This document shows positions 15,371-32,758 of a DNA stretch of 44,513 bases, in pieces. A program made the translations under genes and the position numbers. Origin of the DNA: Candidatus Bathyarchaeota archaeon (lineage in GTDB: Archaea; Thermoproteota; Bathyarchaeia; Bathyarchaeales; Bathycorpusculaceae); the NCBI GenBank assembly GCA_026014705.1, contig JAOZHU010000037.1, positions 1 through 44,513 of the forward strand, read 5' to 3'. Below the pieces are notes generated by a model that was not told the DNA's origin, did not search any database, and worked only from the letters and a program-made list of their open reading frames with translations. Position 1 is the first letter of the stretch, and each line of letters begins with the position of its first letter.

Positions 15371-17719
15371 ATGCCCAAGAAACCAAACAAATACCTCCTG
15401 CTGCTCCTCGTTTTCATTTTCGCCTTCACATACCGCATGCTGCTGATGCACTGGCAAACCTTCCCACCAGGCGCCGACATCGGACTGCACAACAGCATAA
15501 TCCACTCAATCACTGAAACTGGAAACACAAATTTCCTGTGGAATTATTACCAAATGGGTGGTGGAGCTTCTCTGACTTTTCCAGGATACCACATCTTTCT
15601 ATCATACATAATCTCGATTACCGGACTACCTGAATACTTGGCGCATTCACTGGTTGTTTCCTTCTTTTCCTCACTCATCGTGTTCTGTGCCTTCTTGATA
15701 ACGAGAACGATATGGGCAGAATCTGCCGCCTTAATTGTTGCCTTTTTGGTTGCGATCTCTCGTTTTGATGTTGAAATGTTGCTGTGGGGTGGCTACCCAA
15801 ACGTAATTACGCTGATGCTTATTCCGCTATCTTTCTATTTGTTCCTTCAGAAAGCCAAGTTTTCTTCAATCCCATTTCTTGCTTCCGCTGGACTGCTGTC
15901 AGCAGCAATTTTCCTGACGCATTCGCTCAGTTCTGTCATGTTCGTTGTCATGACTGTTGCAACAATTTTTCTTGTAACACTCTTTTCCAAAAGAGCCAGA
16001 GTTCCTAGAACGCGCCTCTTCGTTTGGCTTGCGCCTATTTTTCTAGGAGCGCTCGTTGTTTCTCCTTTTTTGCTGAAAATTGTCCCAGCCTATTTGAGCA
16101 GCAGCGGTGACATAGTTACTGGTGGCATGTCAGCGATTAGGTTAGCACTGCTCTCAACTAGAGTGCTTCCTCTGGACCTCGTGTTACCCCTTCTTGTCCT
16201 GTTCCCGCTGTTTTTTTTGTTCTCAAGGAAGCAATTCGGAAACTTCTTCGCCGTCCCCGCTTTTCTCTTAGCTGTATGGATTTTGATTCCAACAGTCTTG
16301 ACTCAAGGCTTCTTGGTTGGGTTATACACAGATTACAATCGTTTCTTGTACTTCGTTGTTTTGCCTGTAATAATCCTAATCGGGATAGCAATTGACCACG
16401 GCTCACGCTTTTTCTCGCGCATAATCGATACTTACCGTTCTCTTACACGAACGAATGCGCCAGGCGAAAACCGCGGCAACAAGAAGCTTACACGTTTGGC
16501 ATCGCTTCTCACTCGAAGGAAACTTTACTCCGTTTTTGTTCTAGGTTTCCTGCTGTTTTCCTTTTCAGCAGTACCGATTTTCTTGACTCCTTGGCAAGGC
16601 GCCATCGTATCAAGTTTCTACCAAACTATGAGCGAGCCTAGTTACGAAGCAATGCAGTGGGCTAAGGAGAACACTCCAGTTAATTCGACTTTTGTTTCTG
16701 ACGCCTATTACGGGTGGTGGTTTTCAGGTTTCGCCCAGCGACCAACTTTCAGCGCAGTTGACCCACAGTATTTAACGCTTACACGAGAGTTTCAACCCGC
16801 AAGAACCGCCAAGAGTCTGCTTGACACGGATTACATAATCGATAACGGTTTAATCCAAATTAGAGAAGACGGCGGATACACCGGCAGACATAATCCAATG
16901 TTTCTTGCCAAGCTTAATTGGACCTATTTTCCTTATCCCTTTTTCCACTTCAACAGCAAAGAATCAGCTGTCATGGTCAGAGTAGGCGACGCCGTTCAGT
17001 CTTATGATCTAACGCAACTTGCCGTGAAAGAAATGCGGTGCGAACAAAACGCGGAGTTTGCGTGCATTTTGGTTAGGAAAGGAAATAGCTTTTTCAATTA
17101 CACGCAATGTCTCACGGTCTACAAAGGCATAGGGTTTGTGAACATGTCTATAACCGTAAGAAGCGATGTTAAAGGCGTTTGCTTGGACTGGGTTGATTTC
17201 CTTGTTCACATTAGAGGCGAGCCTATGGTGGGCGGCAACACGATCGGGTTATTCGATAACGGCGTGAAAGCATTGGGGCAGTTTATATTTGTTGGAAAAC
17301 AACCTATTGCCACCGTAGTTACTCCTGAAAACCCCAGCGGTTTAATATTGCGCTATGCTTTGGATGGCACATCGTATCAGAAAATACAGCTTTGGGTAGG
17401 CGCTTTTTCTGTTACAGATGACTTGAACGTTTACCGCGACCCAGCCGGCAAGGCACGTTTTCTCTGGGGGCTATTGGCGGATAATCTGAATTTGTACCTG
17501 AACCATGCAAAGGAAATGCCTGTGGAGGATTTGCCTCTTGATGTATTCGATTATCAAGAAGCCATCGTAAATAATGGAATCTCTTACATTGCTTGCCGTG
17601 ATCGTGACATAATTCCTAAGTTTGCAAACGACCCAGCCTTTGATTTGGTGTTTATTAATGATGAAGTGGCAATATTTAGAGTTAAACAGCGCTTAAATCA
17701 AGTGGAGAGATTACCATAG
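15371..17719 (+). CDS. Large multi-pass membrane protein, GT-C glycosyltransferase-like
   Basis: A 782-aa protein. The first half (about 1-430) has around 11-12 membrane segments and the second half is a soluble, presumably extracytoplasmic domain. The first extracytoplasmic loop has acidic and histidine residues in GADIGLHNSIIHSITETG (D36, H40), where GT-C enzymes place their catalytic Asp. After the last membrane segment, WAKENTPVNSTFVSDAYYGWW resembles the region of AglB/STT3-type enzymes around their WWDYG motif, but the motif itself is not intact. GT-C enzymes transfer sugars from polyprenol phosphates. Seen: topology and loop residues. Inferred: glycosyltransferase activity. It is followed five bases later by a paralogue, so the two are co-transcribed. 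Confidence 0.6.
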   Translation: MPKKPNKYLLLLLVFIFAFTYRMLLMHWQTFPPGADIGLHNSIIHSITETGNTNFLWNYYQMGGGASLTFPGYHIFLSYIISITGLPEYLAHSLVVSFFSSLIVFCAFLITRTIWAESAALIVAFLVAISRFDVEMLLWGGYPNVITLMLIPLSFYLFLQKAKFSSIPFLASAGLLSAAIFLTHSLSSVMFVVMTVATIFLVTLFSKRARVPRTRLFVWLAPIFLGALVVSPFLLKIVPAYLSSSGDIVTGGMSAIRLALLSTRVLPLDLVLPLLVLFPLFFLFSRKQFGNFFAVPAFLLAVWILIPTVLTQGFLVGLYTDYNRFLYFVVLPVIILIGIAIDHGSRFFSRIIDTYRSLTRTNAPGENRGNKKLTRLASLLTRRKLYSVFVLGFLLFSFSAVPIFLTPWQGAIVSSFYQTMSEPSYEAMQWAKENTPVNSTFVSDAYYGWWFSGFAQRPTFSAVDPQYLTLTREFQPARTAKSLLDTDYIIDNGLIQIREDGGYTGRHNPMFLAKLNWTYFPYPFFHFNSKESAVMVRVGDAVQSYDLTQLAVKEMRCEQNAEFACILVRKGNSFFNYTQCLTVYKGIGFVNMSITVRSDVKGVCLDWVDFLVHIRGEPMVGGNTIGLFDNGVKALGQFIFVGKQPIATVVTPENPSGLILRYALDGTSYQKIQLWVGAFSVTDDLNVYRDPAGKARFLWGLLADNLNLYLNHAKEMPVEDLPLDVFDYQEAIVNNGISYIACRDRDIIPKFANDPAFDLVFINDEVAIFRVKQRLNQVERLP

Positions 17720-17724
17720 TCTTG

Positions 17725-20010
17725 ATGCGCATGCTTTCAGACAGAAAATCCCTGGAAATCGTTTTCCTAACAGTGTTCTCCATCGCGTCTTTCGTTCTTT
17801 TTTTTAGCCTCTTGTCAGTAAACGGGTTGGTTTTAGGTAACGACCCTGCGGTTCACTTAGGCAGAGCGGAAATGCTCTTGGCGGGTGGACGAATCCCCCT
17901 AAGCGACATCGCGTGGCTTCCTCCCCTGTACCACATCGTGCTTGCAACCCTTATCACTTTTACAGGCGCAATGACTGTTGAGCAGATGCTGTTCCTAATG
18001 AAAGCTCTGACTGCGTTGATTGATTGGCTTTTGCTGTTCTCAGTGTATCTGGTTGGCGCCAAGTTTCTCGGCAAAAAATATGGGGTTCTTGCCGCGTCGC
18101 TGATGCTGCTTAGTTTTCCATTGTATGAAATAAATTTTTGGGGTGGCTACACGGGCATACTCAGCTTGGCGTTTATTAGCTTGCTGTTTTTGTATTTCTC
18201 TTTAGGTAAGCGGGATTTTGGGTCTATTTTAGTGACGTTCATTCTCGCGTTTTCTCTGGTATTGTCGCATCAGCTTGCCACGTTCTTGGCGGTTATAATT
18301 TTGCCCCTGTTTCTTATCATAATGTTTGCTAAATCCAGAGGGCATTTTTCGAAGGCGTGGCTTGCGGCAATATTAGGCGGCGCATTGGCGTTTTTCATTT
18401 ACTATTTTCAAGCTATTTGGGCTAATCTTGACGTTTTGATTTCGCATGTTTTCTTCGGCATAAAAACCTATTTGTATCAGGTTCCAAGTGTTAGTGCCCA
18501 TTCTTTTATGATTAACTTTGGGTTTATCCTCTTTTTTGCTGCGCTTGGAGTTTTTCTCGGCTACTTCAGGCTGAAGAAAGAGAAAAAATTAGGCGGCTAT
18601 CTGATTTTGTCGTTGAGCTTGTTTATTCCGCTGTTTCTTTCGCAGTCCTATCTCTTTGGTCTTTACTTGCCTTATCAATGGTTCGTTTATTTCTTGATGC
18701 CTCCGCTGGTAGTTTTCGCAGCCGTCGCTTTCTCGTTCATTATTGACCTCTTTTTTGACGCCTATCGCAGAATAAAATTTGGGCGGAAAAGACTAATGCA
18801 AATAGCTTCTGTTTCTCTTGTTCTCTTGGTTCTCTTCTTGCTGCTTGCGCGCTCGCAGGTTCTAGGTTCGAGAATCAACGAAAGCTTCTATTACTATTCC
18901 ACAACTGACATGGCTGGGTATAATGCCGCTGTGTGGCTTAGAGAGAATTTTCCTGATGCAGCTAATGTCACGGCCACCGAGAAGCCTGGCTCGTGGTTCG
19001 GGTTGTACTCAGGCAAGTTTACAATAGCCGCAACCAATCCTATCATTGACAGAAACATTGTGGCCGAGTCTGTTCTTGATTTGTCTTATGAAATTGAGCA
19101 TCCGTTAACGATGATAAGGGCTTACTCGGCGAAAGGCAACATTTCTGACGAAAACCACGTTTCTATTAACAATGTTTGGAGGAGAGTTTCATATCTGTCT
19201 GCCGCTGGGATTTTTTTGAATTTCACTGAAAACAACCGAGCACATTATTCTGCCCTCTCTAATTTGAACAGGGAAATCATTTTTGAGGAAAAAGGCTATC
19301 CGAAAAGGTTCATAATCACTTATTTCAATGACGAAATCGCTTTGACAGAAAGCATCCTCGTTCAAAATGACAGCTACCCTGTGGAAGTCGCTTGGACATT
19401 GTCTCCCTTAAGAAGTGAAATTCACGATGTAACCCTTTATGTGAGTTATTTTTTTGATCTCTACTTCAAGTTTGAGAAGGCATATGTTCCAGGCTCTTTG
19501 AACGGGGAAAATCCTTGGAGCAAGCCTTCAATTGTTAATGGAAACGAGTGGGCTGTTGTGACTTTCTCAAAAAACAATTTGACCGATAATTACATTGGTG
19601 CCTACGATGATACGAATGAAATTGCGTTTGCCCTGAAATTTGCTGATTTACCTGAATGGGGCAATGTGGGCGCATTATCCAGCAGGCAGGTAGATGCTTT
19701 CAGATTTGAATACCGCTTTGACAGCATCAGCATTAACCATACAGCCTCATTCGCCTACCAAATCCTCACTTTTTCTAAAAGCAGTTATCCTGATATGCCC
19801 CGCTTAGGAGAATTGGAAAACCTGTTTGACTTCAGGTCAGCAACTGCTTTTCACGTGACCACCCGAAACTACGTTGACTACATCAAAGAATTCAACTTGG
19901 AGTTTTTAGTATACGACAAAAACAGGTTTGACAGCAAACTCCTCACCTCACCGCTACTACAACTGGTCTATTCAAACGACAAATACGTCGTATGCAGAAT
20001 TAAAAAGTAG
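17725..20010 (+). CDS. Large multi-pass membrane protein, paralogue of the preceding GT-C-like gene
   Basis: About 761 aa. It has the same architecture as its neighbour: about 11-12 membrane segments to residue 385, then a large soluble domain. The first-loop motif is GNDPAVHLGRAEMLLAGG (Asp and His at equivalent positions), followed by WLPPLYHIVLA. After the membrane region YNAAVWLRENFPDAANVTATE parallels the neighbour's post-membrane WAKENTPVNST. The ATG at 17725 is chosen; a TTG directly before it and an ATG nine bases later are alternatives. The pair may act on one glycan or form a heteromer. No acceptor or donor can be named. Confidence 0.58.
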   Translation: MRMLSDRKSLEIVFLTVFSIASFVLFFSLLSVNGLVLGNDPAVHLGRAEMLLAGGRIPLSDIAWLPPLYHIVLATLITFTGAMTVEQMLFLMKALTALIDWLLLFSVYLVGAKFLGKKYGVLAASLMLLSFPLYEINFWGGYTGILSLAFISLLFLYFSLGKRDFGSILVTFILAFSLVLSHQLATFLAVIILPLFLIIMFAKSRGHFSKAWLAAILGGALAFFIYYFQAIWANLDVLISHVFFGIKTYLYQVPSVSAHSFMINFGFILFFAALGVFLGYFRLKKEKKLGGYLILSLSLFIPLFLSQSYLFGLYLPYQWFVYFLMPPLVVFAAVAFSFIIDLFFDAYRRIKFGRKRLMQIASVSLVLLVLFLLLARSQVLGSRINESFYYYSTTDMAGYNAAVWLRENFPDAANVTATEKPGSWFGLYSGKFTIAATNPIIDRNIVAESVLDLSYEIEHPLTMIRAYSAKGNISDENHVSINNVWRRVSYLSAAGIFLNFTENNRAHYSALSNLNREIIFEEKGYPKRFIITYFNDEIALTESILVQNDSYPVEVAWTLSPLRSEIHDVTLYVSYFFDLYFKFEKAYVPGSLNGENPWSKPSIVNGNEWAVVTFSKNNLTDNYIGAYDDTNEIAFALKFADLPEWGNVGALSSRQVDAFRFEYRFDSISINHTASFAYQILTFSKSSYPDMPRLGELENLFDFRSATAFHVTTRNYVDYIKEFNLEFLVYDKNRFDSKLLTSPLLQLVYSNDKYVVCRIKK

Positions 20011-20121: not shown

Positions 20122-21177
20122 TTACTGTTCGCGTAGCACTTTTGGCACGTATGCGCAGGCAGGGTCGCTTTCGAAGAGGTCGCCAGTGTAGTATTCGGCG
20201 CGTGTTCTGCATCCGCCGCAGATTTCGCGGTATTCGCAAACGCCGCATTTGCCCTTAATGTTGCTTTTATCTCTTAGTTTCAAGTGGAAATCGGAACGCT
20301 GCAATTCATCCCATGTAGCCTTCAGTTTCTTGTCCTTTACGTTTCCAAGCCGATAGCCTTCATGGAAACCACAGGACCTGTAGTCGCCGTTTTCGGTTAC
20401 GCTAACATAGTTTCCGCCGATTGTGCACTTGCCTAGGAAGCCCTTTGTGAACCAGTCCCAAAACTCCGTGGGGTTTCTTTGTTTCACGATTCTTGCATAG
20501 AACGGTGCGTAAACGTTTACGTGTACTCTTCCTGCGTATTTGAGTTGTAAATCGTAGATTTCGTTGAACGCGCCTTCGTACTCGTCTGGTGATGGCGCCA
20601 AGTCAGGCATGTTTGAGCCTGCGCGTCCAACTGGCACCAAGTTGTGAAACACCACCATGCGGGCTTTGTATTCTTCTGCCAGCTTTATGGGGTGTTCATA
20701 ATCTTTGATGTTGTATTTGGTCATGGTTGTTACTATGCAGTCTAGAATGCCGTTCTCTGAGAGTTTCTTCATCGCGTATAACGCTTTATCGTAGCTGCCT
20801 TTGCCCCGTATCATGTCGTTTGATTCTCGCGTGCCATCTACGCTGACTGCTGTATGCACTTCGTTTCGCACAAGGTTGTTAAGTCGTTTCTCGTCAAAGG
20901 CGAAGCCGCTTGTTATTAGACTTACTTCGAACCCCATTTTTTTGGCGTATCCTATAACGTCGAATATGTCTTGTCGGACTAGTGGTTCTCCGCCGCTTAT
21001 TCCAAACCATGGAGAACCAAAATCGTAAACTTCATCCACAATTTTGCACGCCGTTTTTGTGTCTACTTCGGTGTCTTTGGCGTATTCTGGAGTATAACTG
21101 CAGTATGCGCAGTTGCCGACACATCTTCTGGTGCACCGCCAAGTCACCATGTATAACGGCGCTTTATTGGTAGCCAT
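20122..21177 (-). CDS. Radical SAM/SPASM protein, AhbC/AhbD/NirJ-like
   Basis: About 351 aa from the ATG at 21177, whose MATNKAP start aligns with the MVNKGP start of the paralogue at 27181-28254; a GTG at 21186 is the alternative. The radical SAM cluster motif is C19-x3-C23-x2-C26 (RRCVGNCAYC), then ISGGEPLVR. The SPASM domain ends CGVCEYREICGGCRTRA...DPACAYVP, the same C-terminal signature as heme-biosynthesis enzymes AhbC, AhbD and heme-d1 enzyme NirJ. The N-terminal PLYMVTWRCTRRC differs from typical Ahb proteins. Function could be tetrapyrrole side-chain chemistry or peptide modification. No precursor-peptide gene is visible next to it. It probably has a very short leader (TATA-like TTTTATATCG near 21212). 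Confidence 0.8.
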   Translation of the reverse strand: MATNKAPLYMVTWRCTRRCVGNCAYCSYTPEYAKDTEVDTKTACKIVDEVYDFGSPWFGISGGEPLVRQDIFDVIGYAKKMGFEVSLITSGFAFDEKRLNNLVRNEVHTAVSVDGTRESNDMIRGKGSYDKALYAMKKLSENGILDCIVTTMTKYNIKDYEHPIKLAEEYKARMVVFHNLVPVGRAGSNMPDLAPSPDEYEGAFNEIYDLQLKYAGRVHVNVYAPFYARIVKQRNPTEFWDWFTKGFLGKCTIGGNYVSVTENGDYRSCGFHEGYRLGNVKDKKLKATWDELQRSDFHLKLRDKSNIKGKCGVCEYREICGGCRTRAEYYTGDLFESDPACAYVPKVLREQ

Positions 21178-21384
21178 CAAGGTCACAAGCCCAACTAGAT
21201 AAAATCTTTACGATATAAAATTTCCGATAAAAAAGCCCATTTTGGCGCCTATAGGCATGCGGTGCAAAACAGAGTAAACAACGCGCTATGGTTCAGCGTC
21301 TCTTTCAGCAGTTATCTCCGCTGCACAATGCGTTTATGCCTTTCCCACTCTTTAATATTGAAGCCATTTTCATTTTGAGAAAGT

Positions 21385-21393
21385 CTTATAAAC
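21385..21393 (+). promoter_or_regulatory. TATA box of the RnfD-RnfC fusion gene
   Basis: CTTATAAAC, about 52 bases before the ATG at 21445, in the 258-bp gap shared with the divergent radical SAM gene. The gap also holds a 10-bp palindrome GCCTATAGGC near 21248-21257. Confidence 0.55.
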
Positions 21394-21444: not shown

Positions 21445-22752
21445 ATGTCTAAACCAAAAGAATTCTCTTCGATGACTAAAGATAAACTGATGACTTACAC
21501 TTTCATCGCACTTCTGATACTTGCTGTCGTGTCCTATCTTTCATTCGGCGTGGAATCACTTATCCTAGCTTTGGTTTCAGTTGGAGTTGCCGTTGGCATC
21601 GATATTCTGTTTTCGAAGGTCGCCGTAGACAGCCCGTTGAACATAATGTCTGCCGCCGTATTCGGTTTAATCGTAGCCCTTTGCTATACTTTGGGAAAAC
21701 CAACAATGGCGTCGGTCGAGGTAATGCCACTGATAGCGCCTGGATCATACATCTTTGTGGCATTGATTTCAACAATTGGCATGGTGCTTTTCAAGAAAAT
21801 CCAAGGTATAGGCGGCAGGAAATTCGTAAACCCCGCTGCAGCAGCGAAACTTGTGGCTATGATTCCGTTCTTGAATACAGTGCTGTTACCAAGCGACCAT
21901 ATGGTGACTGGCAATCTGCAAATGCCTGCATTAGCGGGTCCAATCGGTTATGATGTCATAGGCGGTAACGGTGCGTTTTCATTTGCTGGTTATCTGCAAG
22001 CTTGCTTTGCCAGTCCAACTGCAACCACATACTCATCCGTGTACGATTTGATGCTTGTTCAGAAATGGCACGGTTGGGTAGGAGGCATTTCAAGCATCGC
22101 GGTTATAATCGTCGGCATCGCACTGTTCGTAATCGCACGCAGATACATCAAATGGCGAATAACAGTATCCTACTTGGCAACCGTTGCATTGTTTGCGTTA
22201 GTGTTAGGCTTCGTATATGGCGACGGCGACCCGCTGTTGAGAGCTATCTTTCACCTGTTCATAGGAAGCTCAATATTCTTAGCGTTCTTTATGGCTACTG
22301 ATCCTGCTACTACACCGCTGACGTATCTGGGACAGGGAATCTTCGGCGTAGGCTTAGGCATATTAACAGTGCTAATTCAGACGTACATGAGCTTCTTCGG
22401 CGGTTCAATCCTTGCATTGGTCATAATGAACGTGCTTTCCCCGAAGTTGGACAAAATCGGCAAACTTAAACCGTCAACAGAGACAAAAGAACCGAAACTT
22501 CCGAAAGCCAAGCAGTTCACAAGCGTCAAGACCTATGACTGCATCCGCTGTGGCGCCTGCATGCGTGTTTGCTGTCACAAACTGAGCCCGATTCTGATCA
22601 AGCAAGCGTTCGACAAACAAGACGTAAACACCATTTCGAAACTTAGCGCTGACTACTGCACAGGATGTGGACACTGCACTTTCGTTTGCCCAGCAAGGAT
22701 AGACCTGCGTGCCAGCGTACTCAGAGCAAAAGCAATGCTACGTGGCCAATAG
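21445..22752 (+). CDS. RnfD/NqrB-like membrane protein fused to an RnfC-like double 4Fe-4S domain
   Basis: About 435 aa. Residues 1-340 are an RnfD/NqrB-type membrane domain with about ten helices. They carry GRKFVNPAAAAKLV (compare NPF/NPA of RnfD), WHGWVGGISSIAVII, IKWRITVSYLAT and FFMATDPATTPLTYLGQ, the last being a strong family signature. Residues about 362-435 form a ferredoxin domain, CIRCGACMRVC (C366, 369, 372, 376) and CTGCGHCTFVCPARIDLR (C405, 408, 411, 415). It resembles the C-terminal part of RnfC, not a free ferredoxin. The covalent FMN threonine site is not clear; SPTATTYS (about 190-197) is the positional candidate. AGGAG at 21427 precedes the start. No RnfA, B, E or G is nearby; a second membrane protein follows 252 bases downstream. 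Confidence 0.82.
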   Translation: MSKPKEFSSMTKDKLMTYTFIALLILAVVSYLSFGVESLILALVSVGVAVGIDILFSKVAVDSPLNIMSAAVFGLIVALCYTLGKPTMASVEVMPLIAPGSYIFVALISTIGMVLFKKIQGIGGRKFVNPAAAAKLVAMIPFLNTVLLPSDHMVTGNLQMPALAGPIGYDVIGGNGAFSFAGYLQACFASPTATTYSSVYDLMLVQKWHGWVGGISSIAVIIVGIALFVIARRYIKWRITVSYLATVALFALVLGFVYGDGDPLLRAIFHLFIGSSIFLAFFMATDPATTPLTYLGQGIFGVGLGILTVLIQTYMSFFGGSILALVIMNVLSPKLDKIGKLKPSTETKEPKLPKAKQFTSVKTYDCIRCGACMRVCCHKLSPILIKQAFDKQDVNTISKLSADYCTGCGHCTFVCPARIDLRASVLRAKAMLRGQ

Positions 22753-22960
22753 GCACTTTCACCCAACTTCCTAACCTTTTCTTTTATTGTGAAAACCAAA
22801 GTGGTTTAACGCAAACATTGACAAAACCAGCGTAGTAGCGGTTTGCTTTCTTCCACAATAGCAGCAAACATATTTCAGCATATTTGTAACCTATGACATT
22901 GAATGCCCAAGCGGCATTTTCGCATAGTCACAGCGCCCTACGTCGCCTCAAGGCATTAAA

Positions 22961-22969
22961 TTTATAAAC
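22961..22969 (+). promoter_or_regulatory. TATA box of the 23.0-kb membrane protein gene
   Basis: TTTATAAAC about 36-44 bases before the TTG start, implying a leader of only about 10-15 nt and independent transcription from the upstream RnfD-like gene. Confidence 0.55.
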
Positions 22970-23004
22970 TCGCCACAACGTAATAAAGAAATCAGTGATT
23001 AAAA

Positions 23005-23718
23005 TTGGCAGAAACAGGGAAATTTAAGATAGCCGATGTTCTCTATGGCCTCGTCATACCAATCCTCGTTGCCTTACTGATTATCATTTTCCCAGCAGTA
23101 CTTCGCCCAGCGCTTGACAGTTGGTTCCCACCACCAAACATGGAAACAGGCGACCCAGGTTCGTCATATGCCTTTATCACAGTGATTTTCACACATGGCT
23201 TTGCTCTGATGGTATGCTTTGCTGTTCCACTTATCTTGGGTTTAATTTGGAACAAGTGGGCCGGCGGCGCCACAGGCTTCATAATGGGCACACTGTACTA
23301 CGTTGCTTATGCAGGTTATTACACAATGTACAACATCCAAAACTTCCTTGCCTACGTCATCGCTGATCCAACAACAGCCACAGCTAAAACCATGCTTCCA
23401 AATCTTTTCGCTGATCCAAGTTTCATCGGAGGCTACATTGTAGGCGGAATACTGATAGGATACATCGCGGGTGCACTGAACAACAAATCCTTCTCGTTTA
23501 AGCGGATGCTGGGAGCAAGTTTGACAGCTTCAATAACTGTGGGCATGCTTCAGTTTATCCTGAACTACACAGTTGCGTTTGGAGCATGGATGACCCAAAG
23601 TGACCCAGGATTTGCGCTTTTCACTGCATTGCTGCCGATGATTATCCTTGGTATAGTAGGGCCAATAATTGCCAAAGTGTTCACTTGGTACGGACTAATG
23701 CCAAGCGGGCACTCCTAA
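23005..23718 (+). CDS. Unrecognised multi-pass membrane protein
   Basis: A 237-aa protein with about six hydrophobic segments (roughly residues 12-32, 54-80, 88-108, 137-158, 167-190 and 199-225). I do not recognise the family. A periplasmic-type loop after the first helix carries RPALDSWFPPPNMETGDPG. The start is TTG (23005); no better start is in frame and the short leader supports it. It has its own TATA box but lies immediately downstream of the RnfD-RnfC fusion in the same orientation, and a T-rich terminator follows it. A role as membrane partner of the RnfD-like protein is inferred from position only. Confidence 0.7.
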   Translation: MAETGKFKIADVLYGLVIPILVALLIIIFPAVLRPALDSWFPPPNMETGDPGSSYAFITVIFTHGFALMVCFAVPLILGLIWNKWAGGATGFIMGTLYYVAYAGYYTMYNIQNFLAYVIADPTTATAKTMLPNLFADPSFIGGYIVGGILIGYIAGALNNKSFSFKRMLGASLTASITVGMLQFILNYTVAFGAWMTQSDPGFALFTALLPMIILGIVGPIIAKVFTWYGLMPSGHS

Positions 23719-23901: not shown

Positions 23902-25212
23902 TTACTGTTTTTTAGCGAGGTTTTCTGACGCGAACTCCCATGCGATGTTTCCTTTCCAAACATCACCCAACTTTGTTATTCTGATCTCTTTGTCGTCAAC
24001 TTCAATTAGTCCCTTGTTTCTCAGCCTTTGAATTTGCTGTGGAAAAACGTCTTCGGGTAGTTTTCCGAAGCGCGTCATGAATTCCTTCTTGCTCACCGGC
24101 AACCGCAAATACAACCTCGACATTTCCCGCCGCATCATCTCGTCATCAGAAGACTCTGAAAGCCTGCTAATCGGCAGTTTCCCGCTGTTAACGGCTGCCA
24201 TGTAACCATTAATGTCTTCAATATTCGAGTATGAAAACCGCTGCAGGTAACCCATGAAGCAGCCCGCGCCCGTGGTCAAGATTCCACCCCATGGCCAACC
24301 GTTGAGGCAATTCTCTCGCATGTGCCATTCCACTCTTGAAAAACGGTCGTGACCGACCGCTTTGTAGCCCGCATTAGTTAACATGTTGTAAGCTGCCAGG
24401 TACATTTGTTTCTCGTATTCCGCATCTCCCTGAGGCGGCGACTTTCCCCTTTTAATCATGGCCTCGAGGGGTGTACCCGGATCCACATGTAGAGAATAAG
24501 CATCAATTTCAACATCCAGTTCTATCGCCTTCTTGAGTGTGCTTATCCAGCTTTCCATTGTCTGACCTGGAAGGTTATACATCAAATCCACACAAACGCA
24601 TAAACCAAGTTTCCGCGCGTGCCGAATGGCTTTTTCCACCTCAGCGGCGCTGTCAGGCAAGCACAACATTTTTCTAAGCTTATCATCGAACGTTTGGGCA
24701 CCCATATCCATCTGGTAAACGCCGTAAGCGGCAAGTTTGTCGATCTTGTTCAGCGCCAAGGTCTTAGATGAACCTGTGACCTTGATGAAGTATTCTTTGT
24801 TGGTAACGAATTTTTCTTTGCAGAAGTCTATAAGGTCAATCATTTGTTCAGCGGAGAGAACGCTTGGTGTTCCGCCTCCCAGCACTATCTCGTCGAAAAT
24901 GCTTGTCTTTACGTACTTCGTGTTGGCGTACATGTTTAACTCTTTTTTTAGGGTATCTAAGTACGGTTCTATGCGCACTTTTGCCGTAGCGGTTGTAGGA
25001 AAATAGCAGAAAGCGCACCTTGAATCGCAGACTGAAATCCACGGCTGCAGCTCCATCAACCTGCCTGATGTGTTTTCAGTTGACAGGAAATCCATAAACG
25101 CCGTGTAAGTTTCAGGTTTTATGTCTGGGTAATCCCTGTAAGTGTAGGGCGGCCAGTTTTCTCTTGAAGCGTAAATGTCTGATTTGTTCTGCGCAGCAAC
25201 AAGATTCTTCAT
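23902..25212 (-). CDS. HemN-like radical SAM protein (coproporphyrinogen III oxidase-like)
   Basis: About 436 aa from the ATG at 25212, which GAGGAAG precedes by nine bases; a TTG at 25227 gives five more residues. The cluster motif is C62-x3-C66-x2-C69 (ISVCDSRCAFCYFP). Family motifs follow: DEIVLGGGTPSVL, YQMDMGAQTFDDKLRKM and VDLMYNLPGQTMESW. A C-terminal winged-helix-like HemN_C region lies near 350-430. This layout is shared by HemN, the heme chaperone HemW and anaerobic heme-degrading HutW/ChuW-type proteins. CxxxCxxC is followed by Tyr-Phe, and without the extra HemN cysteine I cannot assign true coproporphyrinogen oxidase activity. It lies between the Rnf-like genes and two AhbC/D-like genes. 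Confidence 0.8.
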   Translation of the reverse strand: MKNLVAAQNKSDIYASRENWPPYTYRDYPDIKPETYTAFMDFLSTENTSGRLMELQPWISVCDSRCAFCYFPTTATAKVRIEPYLDTLKKELNMYANTKYVKTSIFDEIVLGGGTPSVLSAEQMIDLIDFCKEKFVTNKEYFIKVTGSSKTLALNKIDKLAAYGVYQMDMGAQTFDDKLRKMLCLPDSAAEVEKAIRHARKLGLCVCVDLMYNLPGQTMESWISTLKKAIELDVEIDAYSLHVDPGTPLEAMIKRGKSPPQGDAEYEKQMYLAAYNMLTNAGYKAVGHDRFSRVEWHMRENCLNGWPWGGILTTGAGCFMGYLQRFSYSNIEDINGYMAAVNSGKLPISRLSESSDDEMMRREMSRLYLRLPVSKKEFMTRFGKLPEDVFPQQIQRLRNKGLIEVDDKEIRITKLGDVWKGNIAWEFASENLAKKQ

Positions 25213-25475
25213 TTGCGACTTCCTCAATTGCAGTTTTCAAAACCGTTTAATAACAGATAAAGCTTACGTTTAACGCTCGCTACCTAGAAAAAAGTGATTG
25301 CCCTTCAGTTTCGCCATGCTGCCAACGTCATGGGTGAGGAGGATACGCATTCGAGACCGAATCACTTCATCATTAATCCTCAGCGCGGAGGCAGCCTCAA
25401 CAAAAACTTAAATCTACCTCAACCAGTTGTTAAATTAAGAATGCAGGTGAAATTAAAACTGAGCGCGTTGGGGGC

Positions 25476-28254: not shown

Positions 28255-28415
28255 GCAAAATTCACCTTCAAATTCTCGCTGTTTGTTTTCCTCATGTACC
28301 TTAAATTTCTCGCGTCCTAAAAAAGATTATGCGTTATTCCCTGCTAACTGTTTCAGTTCTTTTGTAAGCACTTCGGAATTTCAACTGGTTTATGCAACTT
28401 GCCAATTTCCGTAAT

Positions 28416-28423
28416 GTTTATAG
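28416..28423 (+). promoter_or_regulatory. TATA box of the 28.5-kb beta-propeller gene
   Basis: GTTTATAG lies 32-39 bases before the ATG at 28455. It places transcription near 28445 and excludes the longer frame from 28392. Confidence 0.5.
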
Positions 28424-28454
28424 TAAATTAAGCCTATTTGATGATGGCGAAAAG

Positions 28455-31283
28455 ATGTCCAACCTGAACCATCTTTCTATCTATCAATTTCAAAAGCTGA
28501 AAAAGCCGAAGCGCCTAAAGCCATTTTTTGTCGTAGTCACCTTGATAGTGCTTCTTGCAGCATCGGTGTCTATTGCACTTTTTATTCTCAGCAACAGCTT
28601 TTGGAAGCCTGAGGTCGCCCCGGCCGATTATTTACTCCAATACGAGTGGCCCCAGTTTCAAGGTGACTCGTCATTCACGCGTTTCTCCGCTGGCCCAGCG
28701 CCAGACACACCTGATATCCTGTGGAAAACAAACATAACAGGCATACAAAGCTATGTCGCAGCGTTTAACGGCAAAATCTTCGTCACCACAAAAACAGCGG
28801 TTTTTGCTCTCGACAGAGAAACAGGCAGCATCTTGTGGAACACCACTGCGCCTGCCCCTGGACCTTGGCCCGCAGTTTACAAAATCGATGAAACCCATCT
28901 CGTCATAGGCAACAGCAGCCTCGACATAGACACTGGTCGCATAATATGGACCAGTGACAGCTTTTCTGCTACTCCACGTCCCCTTTTCGCCGCAAATGTT
29001 TACAGCCCCGAGGAAAGAATGTTTTATACTAAAGTCAATTCCCATGTTCAAGCATGGGACTTCTCTGACCCTGAAAACCCGCCGAAACTGGCATGGGAAA
29101 CCTATGTTTCTGGCAGTGGCTTCGTTGGCTCTGGGGTGCAGTACGGCGACGGCAAAGTGTTTCCAGGCTCATTTGAACCCCACCAAATGGCACTTGACGC
29201 CAAAACGGGTAAAGTTCTCTGGGACACCGAGACAAAATGTGCCATGCTTTTCTCAGGTTCCTATTACGAGGGGCGTTTCTTTAGAGGTGGCTCCCATGAT
29301 AACACATTGTACTGCTTTAATGCGACGACCGGCAAAATTCTCTGGACGTTTAACCCGAATACGGAAGATGGCTATTTCTGTATTGGCACAGCAACTGCCT
29401 ACGGAATGGTCTACGCGCTCAACAGAGATGGGTATCTCTATGCTCTTGATGCGGACAATGGCGATTTAGTGTGGAAATACAAGGGACCCGGGCTGTTAAT
29501 GTTCCCAGGGAACCCCACGGTTGCCGACGGGAAAGTTTATGCCACAACAGGCCAAACTGCATCGTATACTGGCGTGCAGGGAGAATCTGAATTCGCGTGC
29601 TTTGACGCTTACACGGGACACGTTCTATGGAAACTCCCAATAGAAGCGTTTGCACCGAGAGAGTCGGTAGCCATTGCATACGGCAACTTGTATCTCATTC
29701 CCGGTGATGTGACAACGGCTGTTGACACAACATCAGGCGAAGAGTACGCTACATTGAATCAGGTGTGGGCTATAGGACCTAGCGTGTGGCCCATGTGGCG
29801 GCGAGATGCAGCCCATTCTGCGAGCGGCGTTTCTGGTCCTACATACCTGACTTTGCGCTGGAAATTCACCACTAACGGTGCAGTTGTGTCCTCGCCGTCA
29901 ATCGTCGATGGAATTGCCTATTTTGGGTCACAAGACAAGAACATATACGCTATCAGTGCACGTGATGGGCGTTTCATCTGGAAGTTTGCCACTCAGGGGC
30001 GTATTGAGTCTTCGCCTGCTGTGGTGAATGGAAAAGTGTACACTGGGGCGGATGATGGTTACGTTTACTGTCTGGACGCTTACAGAGGCAACCTCTTATG
30101 GAAAACTTTTGCCGGCGGTGATATTTCGGCTAGCTTTGGCTCTGCTGTTATGCTGAGGTCTTCACCCGCTGTTGTTGAAGGCAGAGTCTACGTGGGGTCG
30201 CTGGACACTAATCTATACTGCTTAGACGCTGATGAAGGCGATGTAAAGTGGACTTTCAAAACTGAAGGATACATTACGTCCTCCCCAGCTGTCGCTGATG
30301 GTGCAGTTTACGTTATCTCACAGGAGCCTGCGTCGGGCGCCCTCTACAAACTCGACGCCATTACGGGCGATTGTATCTGGAAAACTGAACTTCCGTATCA
30401 GATAGTATTCACGGGAGGAACAGACATTCATTCGTCTCCAACAGTAGCCGAAGGCATAATTTTTGCAGCTACTAACGCTATGGAATACTATGGGATAGAC
30501 GCGGCTACAGGCAAAATCAAATGGACGTACAGTGACCCCTCAGCACAGGAGTTCATTGTCTGTTCTCCTATCTATAATGACGGCAAGGTTTTTTTAATCG
30601 ACAAATTCTCAATAGTATGCGTCAACGCTGAGAGCGGTCGCACTGTGTGGTCGACTTATCTTGGCGATGAGCTTTATGTTTCACCTTCTTATGCTGGTGG
30701 AAAGCTATACGTGGTAACTGATCAGCGTTCTATTCATGTCATAAACGCCACGAACGGCGAGAAGTTGTCGCGTTTTGAAACTGGCTCTAATAGTTGGTCT
30801 GCTCCCACAATATACGCGGGGAAGTTGTATGTGGGCAATAACGACTGGAATGTTTACTGCCTCGCAGATCCCGCTGCCTTGGATAGCTACGTCACTGTGG
30901 AATTAGCTGCTTCTGAGGTTGTTTTAGGTGAATCAATTAGGGGTTCTGGTAATCTTGTGCCGGGAATAGCAGGTGCTTCTGTGTTAGTGTCTTTTGTTAG
31001 ACCCAATGGCACAGTGGTTGATCTGCAAGTAGCAGTTTCTAATAAGGGTGCCTTCAATTTTGCCTATAAGCCTGATGTTTTGGGGAATTGGACTGTTGTT
31101 GCCCAGTGGCAGTCAAACAAGGATTACTACGCTTCATCATACAGTGCCCCCACATCTCTCGAGGTTACTGAAGCTGCCCATGATAAGGTGCCTGTTGAAT
31201 ACACTTACGCTGTGGTTGCTGTTTTGGTTGTGCTGATGATCATGTTGCTTGGGTATGCTTACGTGAAGCGAGGAGAAGGGTGA
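28455..31283 (+). CDS. Membrane-anchored PQQ-type beta-propeller surface protein
   Basis: About 942 aa from the ATG at 28455. An N-terminal membrane anchor (about residues 24-46) is followed by WPQFQGDSSFTRF. Then come at least a dozen PQQ/BamB-like propeller blades with the repeating pattern aspartate-x-x-T/S-G-x-x-x-W-K/T-F (for example DRETGSILWNT, DAKTGKVLWDT, DAATGKIKWTY), enough for two propellers (around 60-440 and 460-840). A restart WPMWRRDAAHS marks the second. An Ig-like domain (about 850-910) and a C-terminal membrane helix with tail VKRGEG end it. It is a structural repeat family; no PQQ-dehydrogenase catalytic residues are evident. A ligand- or polymer-binding surface role is inferred. 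Confidence 0.85.
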   Translation: MSNLNHLSIYQFQKLKKPKRLKPFFVVVTLIVLLAASVSIALFILSNSFWKPEVAPADYLLQYEWPQFQGDSSFTRFSAGPAPDTPDILWKTNITGIQSYVAAFNGKIFVTTKTAVFALDRETGSILWNTTAPAPGPWPAVYKIDETHLVIGNSSLDIDTGRIIWTSDSFSATPRPLFAANVYSPEERMFYTKVNSHVQAWDFSDPENPPKLAWETYVSGSGFVGSGVQYGDGKVFPGSFEPHQMALDAKTGKVLWDTETKCAMLFSGSYYEGRFFRGGSHDNTLYCFNATTGKILWTFNPNTEDGYFCIGTATAYGMVYALNRDGYLYALDADNGDLVWKYKGPGLLMFPGNPTVADGKVYATTGQTASYTGVQGESEFACFDAYTGHVLWKLPIEAFAPRESVAIAYGNLYLIPGDVTTAVDTTSGEEYATLNQVWAIGPSVWPMWRRDAAHSASGVSGPTYLTLRWKFTTNGAVVSSPSIVDGIAYFGSQDKNIYAISARDGRFIWKFATQGRIESSPAVVNGKVYTGADDGYVYCLDAYRGNLLWKTFAGGDISASFGSAVMLRSSPAVVEGRVYVGSLDTNLYCLDADEGDVKWTFKTEGYITSSPAVADGAVYVISQEPASGALYKLDAITGDCIWKTELPYQIVFTGGTDIHSSPTVAEGIIFAATNAMEYYGIDAATGKIKWTYSDPSAQEFIVCSPIYNDGKVFLIDKFSIVCVNAESGRTVWSTYLGDELYVSPSYAGGKLYVVTDQRSIHVINATNGEKLSRFETGSNSWSAPTIYAGKLYVGNNDWNVYCLADPAALDSYVTVELAASEVVLGESIRGSGNLVPGIAGASVLVSFVRPNGTVVDLQVAVSNKGAFNFAYKPDVLGNWTVVAQWQSNKDYYASSYSAPTSLEVTEAAHDKVPVEYTYAVVAVLVVLMIMLLGYAYVKRGEG

Positions 31284-31309: not shown

Positions 31310-32758
31310 TCATGTTGTTGGGGTTTTCTCTTCTTTGCTGATTGGTGCTATTTTTCGGAAGCCCGAAGAAAACCAGTGAGGCAGTCTAATTCGCCATAGC
31401 AAATGATTTAATGCTGCACGTGCCATGATTTGGCTGTAAAAATCCCTTTTCACTGTTTTGCGTAGGAAATAGGCTGGAGAGAAAAAGCTGTTGTAAAATT
31501 TTCCCCGCATGTCGTCAATTTTCTGCGGTGGCAGCAAAGTGTTTTTAAAGACAGGCGATTGTTCGTCGAAGCGGCTCCAATCAGAGGAAATTTCCCAGTC
31601 TAATTCCTTCAACTTGTCATATAATTCGGTGCCTGGATACGGTATTGCTTGGCAAACATAAACGTAGTCCGGTCCCGTTTTCTTAATGAAATTGAAAGTT
31701 TGCTTCAGCATGTCTGGTGTTTCGCCCGGGTACCCGACAACCACTGATATGGCGACTGATATTCCTGCGTCCTTCGCCATTTTGATGCCCTTTGCGTTTT
31801 GCTCGACTGTGGTGCCTTTCTTCATGGCGTCAAGCATTTTTTGGCTGCCTGATTCCACTCCGAAGTGTATGAGTTGGCAGTTTGCGCCTCTCATTTTCGC
31901 CAAAATTTCAGGGGATATTCTGTCCACTCTTGTTCTGCAATCCCATGGCAAATCAAAGTTTCTTTTTTTCATCTCGTCGCAGATTGCGTATGCGCGTTTA
32001 ACGTCAAACGTGAAGGTGTCATCGTAAAAAGCGAAGACATCCGCGCCATGTACATCTCTTAACCACTCTAGTTCGTCAATTACTTTTTCGGGGCTTCTTG
32101 TTCTGAATCGTTTTCCGCACATCTTGGAGGCAAGGCAGAAGGTGCATTGAAAGGGACATCCTCTGCTTGTTATTATAGGCAAGTACATTTTTCCCGAAAT
32201 CCTGTACTTGCTTAAGTCAAAATGTCCGTACGCTGGATGAGGTAACTCATCCAAGTTTTGAATGAAGGCTCTGTCCTTGTTGCGGATGATTTTGCTGTTT
32301 TTCCTGAAGGTTATTCCGTCAACTTCTGGAAGGCTGTCGAAACAATCTTTGGAAACCAAGTCTGCGATTTCCAGCAGGGTTTTTTCGCCTTCGCCTCTGA
32401 CTATGATGTCGATTTGAGGTGACTCATTTAGAGTTTGCTCATCCAGGACCGTGACGTGAGGTCCGCCGATGAGGGTTAGGCAGTTTGGGGCTGCTTCGCG
32501 GGCTGTTTTCACTATCTCGATGGCAGGGATGTAGGTGAGGGTAGAGGATGTGACGCCGACGATGTCCGGCTTGTTCTTGCTGATTTCTGTTTTTAATTGG
32601 TCTCTTGTGTGTCTATGTGCTTGGCAGTCGATGACGTTTACGGAGTACTGGTTTTTCTCCAGAACAGCCGCTAGATATCCAATACCGAGTGGAATGAAAA
32701 GCGCTGGCGGAGCCCCAGCAGGAGACGGCGGGTTAATGAGGGTTACATGCGCTTTCAA
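31310..32758 (-). CDS. B12-binding-type radical SAM protein, paralogue of the one at 12.1 kb
   Basis: A 482-aa protein. The N-terminal B12-binding-like domain (VTLINPPSPAG, IVGVTSSTLTYIPA, LIGGPHVTVLDE) has no DxHxxG. The radical SAM motif is C201-x3-C205-x2-C208 (SRGCPFQCTFC), followed by AFYDDTFTFD, FGVESGSQKML and VGYPGETPDM. Domain order and many phrases match the 12085-13470 protein, including IPYPGTELYDKL versus TPYPGTPLYEQV. TTG at 32758 is preceded by AGAGGAAA. The C-terminal 100 residues are basic with aromatic patches, perhaps for membrane association with a lipid substrate. Substrate unknown. Confidence 0.84.
   Translation of the reverse strand: MKAHVTLINPPSPAGAPPALFIPLGIGYLAAVLEKNQYSVNVIDCQAHRHTRDQLKTEISKNKPDIVGVTSSTLTYIPAIEIVKTAREAAPNCLTLIGGPHVTVLDEQTLNESPQIDIIVRGEGEKTLLEIADLVSKDCFDSLPEVDGITFRKNSKIIRNKDRAFIQNLDELPHPAYGHFDLSKYRISGKMYLPIITSRGCPFQCTFCLASKMCGKRFRTRSPEKVIDELEWLRDVHGADVFAFYDDTFTFDVKRAYAICDEMKKRNFDLPWDCRTRVDRISPEILAKMRGANCQLIHFGVESGSQKMLDAMKKGTTVEQNAKGIKMAKDAGISVAISVVVGYPGETPDMLKQTFNFIKKTGPDYVYVCQAIPYPGTELYDKLKELDWEISSDWSRFDEQSPVFKNTLLPPQKIDDMRGKFYNSFFSPAYFLRKTVKRDFYSQIMARAALNHLLWRIRLPHWFSSGFRKIAPISKEEKTPTT

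Follow-up and report, generated by a model that had tools for sequence, protein, structure and literature searches.

A conserved RnfD-based membrane redox module and a linked six-helix protein in Bathyarchaeia

Some uncultured Bathyarchaeia encode a redox module that is real and conserved and that is a variant of the known Rnf/Nqr-type membrane redox systems. In the window, by which we mean the whole 44,513-nucleotide stretch of DNA analysed, it consists of a gene in which an RnfD/NqrB membrane domain is fused to an RnfC-like tail with two [4Fe-4S] clusters, followed by a gene for a six-helix membrane protein, here called P2 (Table 1). We consider it probable that the module works as a stand-alone transmembrane electron conduit, in which the RnfD half of the pump Rnf receives electrons from swappable cytoplasmic inputs.

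Genome studies of sediment- and lignocellulose-associated Bathyarchaeia could identify neither a route for the disposal of reduced ferredoxin nor the terminal electron-transfer machinery (PMC9534799, PMC11697101), and the RnfD module is a concrete candidate for this reductant outlet. Isolated RnfC and RnfD hits in Bathyarchaeota have already been noted (PMC9534799); the literature searched contains no description of the module as a system.

Table 1 Features of the module and of the genes on either side, in positions of the window.
Feature	Position	Strand	Remarks
Radical SAM/SPASM protein, divergent neighbour	20122..21186	-	AhbD-like, below cut-off
TATA-like element 5' of fusion gene	21385..21393	+	Seen in the sequence of the window alone
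RnfD-ferredoxin fusion gene	21445..22752	+	435 aa, ATG start; start kept in relatives
RnfD/NqrB membrane domain, residues 3-338	21451..22458	+	PF03116 E 8e-44; Foldseek 9eri_D E 4e-11
Codon of Asn129, equivalent of A. woodii RnfD riboflavin ligand Asn123	21829..21831	+	
Codon of Asp286, equivalent of A. woodii RnfD riboflavin ligand Asp249	22300..22302	+	
Two-[4Fe-4S] domain, residues 361-418, RnfC-tail-like	22525..22698	+	Profile matches
P2 TATA-box region, GGCATTAAATTTATAAAC	22952..22969	+	Same place 5' of P2 in most relatives
P2, six-helix membrane protein	23005..23718	+	237 aa, TTG start; restricted to Bathyarchaeia
HutW/HemN-like radical SAM protein, convergent neighbour	23902..25227	-	Below cut-off

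Results

The fusion protein

A Pfam scan places the membrane domain of the fusion protein above the cut-off of PF03116 (NQR2_RnfD_RnfE), while against TIGR01946 the protein scores 102, under the cut-off of 207. The tail carries two intact CxxCxxCxxxC motifs and, when compared with whole families, is closest to the C-terminus of RnfC (positions 353-433 of the TIGR01945 model, E 1e-13); Fer4 domains are the only ones that the Pfam scan returns there, with no PF00175 NAD-binding domain. The first match of the predicted fold is RnfD of A. woodii, followed by NqrB, from a structure model that is only moderate in quality (pLDDT 60). These matches bear out the initial annotation, which had described an RnfD/NqrB membrane domain joined to an RnfC-type two-cluster tail. 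About 30 other fusion loci in relatives have the identical layout, so the fusion is not an assembly accident.

Riboflavin in A. woodii RnfD is bound by Asn123 and Asp249, both of them essential, and covalent FMN is attached to Thr156 (PMC11889175). The equivalent of the first, Asn129, is kept in 31 of 32 relatives, the remaining one being truncated, and Asp286 is present in all 32; on this conservation, riboflavin is probably held by Asn129 and Asp286 in the RnfD domain. The column of the covalent-FMN threonine has Thr in none of 54 sequences, a loss that fits the absence of ApbE described below, and the Glu at A. woodii position 188 is replaced by an invariant Gly in Bathyarchaeia RnfD. In the outer linker, His152 and His209 are invariant and Cys187 is nearly so (30 of 32), and one may speculate that these three residues could hold another cofactor. 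Two candidate flavinylation motifs in this region were rejected: a TATT around residues 192-195 lacks conservation and falls outside the alignment column of the Rnf threonine, and an [ST]GA[ST] motif is present in only one of 54 linkers.

Rnf, Nqr and flavinylation genes are missing from the whole genome

The source genome (1.99 Mb, 96% complete) was searched with the profiles PF03116, PF02508, PF04205, PF13375 and PF02424, every one of which gave matches in control genomes. The only PF03116 match is the fusion gene itself. Nowhere in the genome is there a match for RnfA/E (PF02508), for an RnfG-type FMN_bind domain (PF04205), for RnfC (RnfC_N, PF13375; found in the type-b relatives described below) or for ApbE (PF02424). 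NqrC-type and NqrD/E-type families are likewise absent, the other Nqr subunits were not found, and there is no MqnA or MqnD. The lack of RnfA, RnfE and RnfG, which the initial annotation had reported for the window, thus holds for the entire genome. A complete rnf operon or an ApbE gene elsewhere, named beforehand as a test, was looked for and none was found; the profile searches rule out a hidden operon. Because the genome has a single RnfD and no RnfA/E, RnfC, RnfG-type FMN domain or ApbE, the fusion is not a stray paralogue.

The same holds across the class: RnfD is present in 56 of 257 Bathyarchaeia genomes, RnfA/E over the cut-off in none of the 257, and ApbE in one, as a borderline match in a genome lacking RnfD. 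A sample of 398 genomes from across the phylum has PF03116 in no families other than the two known from the class survey.

One membrane domain with three input architectures

RnfD occurs in three forms in these genomes. Form (a) is RnfD-2[4Fe-4S], as in the window; form (b) is a tail-less RnfD followed by a separate, complete RnfC gene; and form (c) is RnfD-2[4Fe-4S]-FrhB, in which the added domain is nearest to the F420-reducing hydrogenase beta subunit (FrhB) and FpoF. Both cluster motifs are intact in 33 of 33 fusions. In type b, the RnfC gene overlaps that of RnfD by 4 bp at 19 of 20 loci, its product has the GxGGxGFPT motif and two cluster motifs in all 20, and a representative exceeds the TIGR01945 and RsxC cut-offs. 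Strong RnfC_N matches are confined to the 20 type-b genomes and G056; in the latter, which lies outside the type-b group and has no RnfD match, the match is near a contig start (G056:C40:84-347). A tail-less RnfD with no RnfC neighbour was seen once (G086:C57), and two further RnfD copies are truncated.

The fused tail and the RnfC tail are about 40% identical, and the clusters are either fused to RnfD or brought by RnfC, a complementarity that is strong evidence for the fused tail taking over the function of the RnfC tail. Judged by domain composition, three cytoplasmic inputs appear to serve one membrane domain, of which the ferredoxin-only fusion in the window is one. A tree of RnfD places all 20 RnfC-linked genes in a single supported clade that falls within the fusions, with type c scattered; owing to the great length of the E. 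coli outgroup branch, the direction of change among the forms is uncertain.

We also considered whether FrhB is supplied in trans in the source genome, and rejected this: it has only two FrhB-type proteins, which are 26-32% identical to the fused domains and located elsewhere. One genome with the RnfC form encodes a stand-alone relative of the fused FrhB domain (L068:1781-3553; about 52% identical) about 4 kb from RnfC, adjoining a gene that by eye resembles methylenetetrahydrofolate reductase.

P2 is a lineage-specific six-helix protein

The initial annotation had described P2 as a six-helix protein of no known family with its own TATA box, and both points stand. The AF2 model has six helices (pLDDT 88, pTM 0.83), P2 has no relative in Pfam, NCBIfam or PDB, and the TATA element, about 45 nt 5' of the P2 start, is kept in position in most relatives. 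The top PDB folds are S-components of ECF transporters (PanT, ThiT and RibU), a likeness that is suggestive only, because the fold E values are 0.15-0.26; against ECF S-component profiles, one weak match each was obtained in Pfam and NCBIfam among 39 members. P2 has no conserved His or Cys and no obvious redox ligands, and with these and the weakly matching ECF folds the earlier idea of P2 as a redox partner finds no support. Comparison of the profiles of its two halves gave no sign of an internal duplication.

Named relatives of P2 are almost all labelled as Bathyarchaeota or Bathycorpusculum/Bathyarchaeum MAGs, and none was found in viral contigs. The source genome has P2 paralogues in three further places. 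Of 27 P2 paralogues in this and related genomes, 17 lie near ArsR-type regulators, 11 near ferredoxins and 8 near ACR3-type permeases, and P-type ATPases also occur in these islands (G000:C18:100912-101478 and G000:C22:38725-43302, loci L081 and L082; L136-L158). The islands suggest a wider membrane-protein family tied to metal or redox stress. In one genus, g5 (loci L062, L069, L093, L094 and L095; genomes G104, G082, G094 and G098), contigs stop within P2: its N- and C-terminal portions lie on separate contigs, and the part between them is absent. Strain variation or repeats that disturbed the assembly are the likely cause, a hypervariable segment a possible one.

RnfD and P2 are linked within a conserved gene block

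Relatives of P2 are found in 62 of 257 genomes and 52 of these share RnfD (Fisher P 3e-39, a value that overstates the association, as the genomes share ancestry and some of the 62 have only a paralogue or fragment). At 24 of the 40 loci that could be tested, P2 lies 3' of RnfD or RnfC on the same strand, in most cases 150-290 bp away. The termite-gut lineages and a few more genera keep both genes but have them apart or in divergent orientation. A lack of conserved linkage in relatives had been named beforehand as a refuting outcome; the linkage is recovered there and, with no Rnf operon or ApbE elsewhere in the genome, it supports the earlier description of a minimal Rnf-like redox module.

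The flanking genes are conserved as well: the HutW/HemN-like gene comes next after P2, convergently, in 22 of 24 cases, and immediately 5' of RnfD there is, in 33 of 48, a divergently oriented SPASM radical SAM gene. The two flanking radical SAM proteins and a third at 31310-32758 are nearest to AhbD, HutW and BchE, far below the family cut-offs; a block of three such genes could possibly be a locus for an unknown tetrapyrrole or lipid modification. The initial annotation had suggested that the flanking radical SAM enzymes might receive electrons from the module. Beyond the conserved gene order this idea finds no support: the genes are on the opposite strand, and without RnfA/E it is not evident how the module could drive ferredoxin reduction uphill.

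Two further features of the window recur beside or near the block in many relatives. At 15371-20010 two large membrane proteins (782 and 762 aa) of no confident Pfam family are encoded in tandem, and at 28392-31283 a 963-aa PQQ-like beta-propeller protein. The latter could be an extracellular electron partner; we make no claim for it as an acceptor, because these genomes are reported to be rich in such genes.

Discussion

In the conduit that we favour, a cytoplasmic carrier would reduce the two [4Fe-4S] clusters of the tail. Ferredoxin would be the donor in the window; in relatives it may be NADH, via RnfC, or probably F420H2, via FrhB. From the clusters, electrons would reach the riboflavin at Asn129/Asp286 of the RnfD domain and then an acceptor that lies within the membrane or beyond it. 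In this reading the inner half is kept, and the outer half and the pump are lost. With RnfA/E, RnfG and the covalent FMN of RnfD missing, the module most likely does not pump ions and is independent of ApbE. Ion translocation has been placed in RnfA/E by one study (PMC11889175) and in RnfD by another (PMC9588780), and pumping is not expected here if it resides in RnfA/E. The likeliest job would be the disposal of excess reductant, as reduced ferredoxin, in anaerobes with no known sink. Outward flow of electrons is probable: the membrane potential favours it, and so do published statements that these archaea have no known reductant sink. P2 is perhaps a dedicated, separately transcribed membrane partner that forms or loads the acceptor side. 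A quinone as acceptor lacks support because the genome has no MqnA/MqnD.

Other readings of the locus were weighed against this conduit. It is unlikely that we are dealing with a tetrapyrrole or corrinoid locus, in which P2 would be an ECF-S-like uptake or binding protein and the RnfD-ferredoxin fusion would reduce the imported cofactor or feed the radical SAM enzymes. The nearest families of all three flanking radical SAM proteins are tetrapyrrole enzymes, their order around the module is kept, and P2 resembles ECF S-components. However, all three matches fall far under the family cut-offs and the genes lie on the opposite strand, the fold matches of P2 have the weak E values given above and its paralogues sit in metal-resistance-type islands, and radical SAM enzymes use soluble carriers and have no need of a membrane conduit. 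Slightly less credence goes to inward flow, from an external donor through RnfD to cytoplasmic ferredoxin, NAD+ or F420. When Rnf runs forward, RnfD takes electrons from the outer side and delivers them to RnfC (PMC11889175), and the type-b RnfD-RnfC pair is for that reason built for the inward direction; yet no external low-potential donor is known, and inward flow would oppose the membrane potential with no pump subunit to drive it.

It is more doubtful still that electrons never cross the membrane, with RnfD passing them, close to the riboflavin site, to a carrier within the membrane, lipid-soluble or otherwise, in the manner of NqrB. NqrB is the next best fold after RnfD and reduces quinone (PMC12174285), and the outer FMN site is lost, whereas the genome lacks the MqnA/MqnD route and no quinone pathway has been reported for Bathyarchaeia (PMC11697101). 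That the fusion is a functionless, decaying relic of a former Rnf operon is largely refuted and most improbable: subunits are missing and the flavinylation site is gone, but 56 genomes keep RnfD, the riboflavin ligands are invariant, every cluster cysteine is preserved, there are three input architectures that include a translationally coupled RnfC gene, and the P2 promoter is conserved.

The preferred conduit suggests that RnfD can exist apart from both the ion pump and flavinylation. This is relevant to the debate about which of RnfD and RnfA/E carries the ion. The conduit also combines one membrane domain with three different cytoplasmic input modules. Tentatively, and with less confidence than we place in the conduit itself, the module may represent a new archaeal exporter class that would be the missing reductant outlet of Bathyarchaeia: RnfD freed of pump and ApbE, fed by ferredoxin, NADH or F420H2, with an outer-loop cofactor site at His152, His209 and Cys187 and a lineage-specific partner.

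Comparison with known systems

P2 has six helices, and the ECF S-components ThiT, RibU and PanT are its top fold matches, at the weak E values given above; it has no significant sequence match to them and sits with redox genes. The F420-oxidising subunits FrhB and FpoF are the nearest relatives of the C-terminal domain of type-c proteins, where it is fused to RnfD and the clusters; this domain is absent from the fusion in the window. With NqrB of Na+-NQR, which reduces membrane quinone from riboflavin, the module shares the fold family, whereas the accompanying Nqr subunits and MqnA/MqnD were not found here.

The Rnf complex itself (RnfABCDGE, ferredoxin:NAD+ oxidoreductase) has in common with the module the RnfD fold, the riboflavin ligands and the RnfC-type cluster tail, and type-b relatives have a complete RnfC. 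In contrast to Rnf, the module dispenses with RnfA/E, RnfG, ApbE and the covalent-FMN threonine, RnfD is fused to the clusters, and the source genome has no RnfC. The bacterial Nqr/Rnf-like two-subunit complexes, which have been proposed to export electrons (PMC8238504, PMC11334425), likewise combine an NqrB/RnfD domain with a cytosolic C-terminal input domain, and have also lost the covalent-FMN threonine and RnfA/E. They differ in their input, a PF00175 NAD domain in bacteria as against Fe-S clusters, RnfC or FrhB in the archaea, and in their partner: where the bacterial systems have a flavinylated FMN_bind protein and ApbE, the archaeal module has the unrelated six-helix P2.
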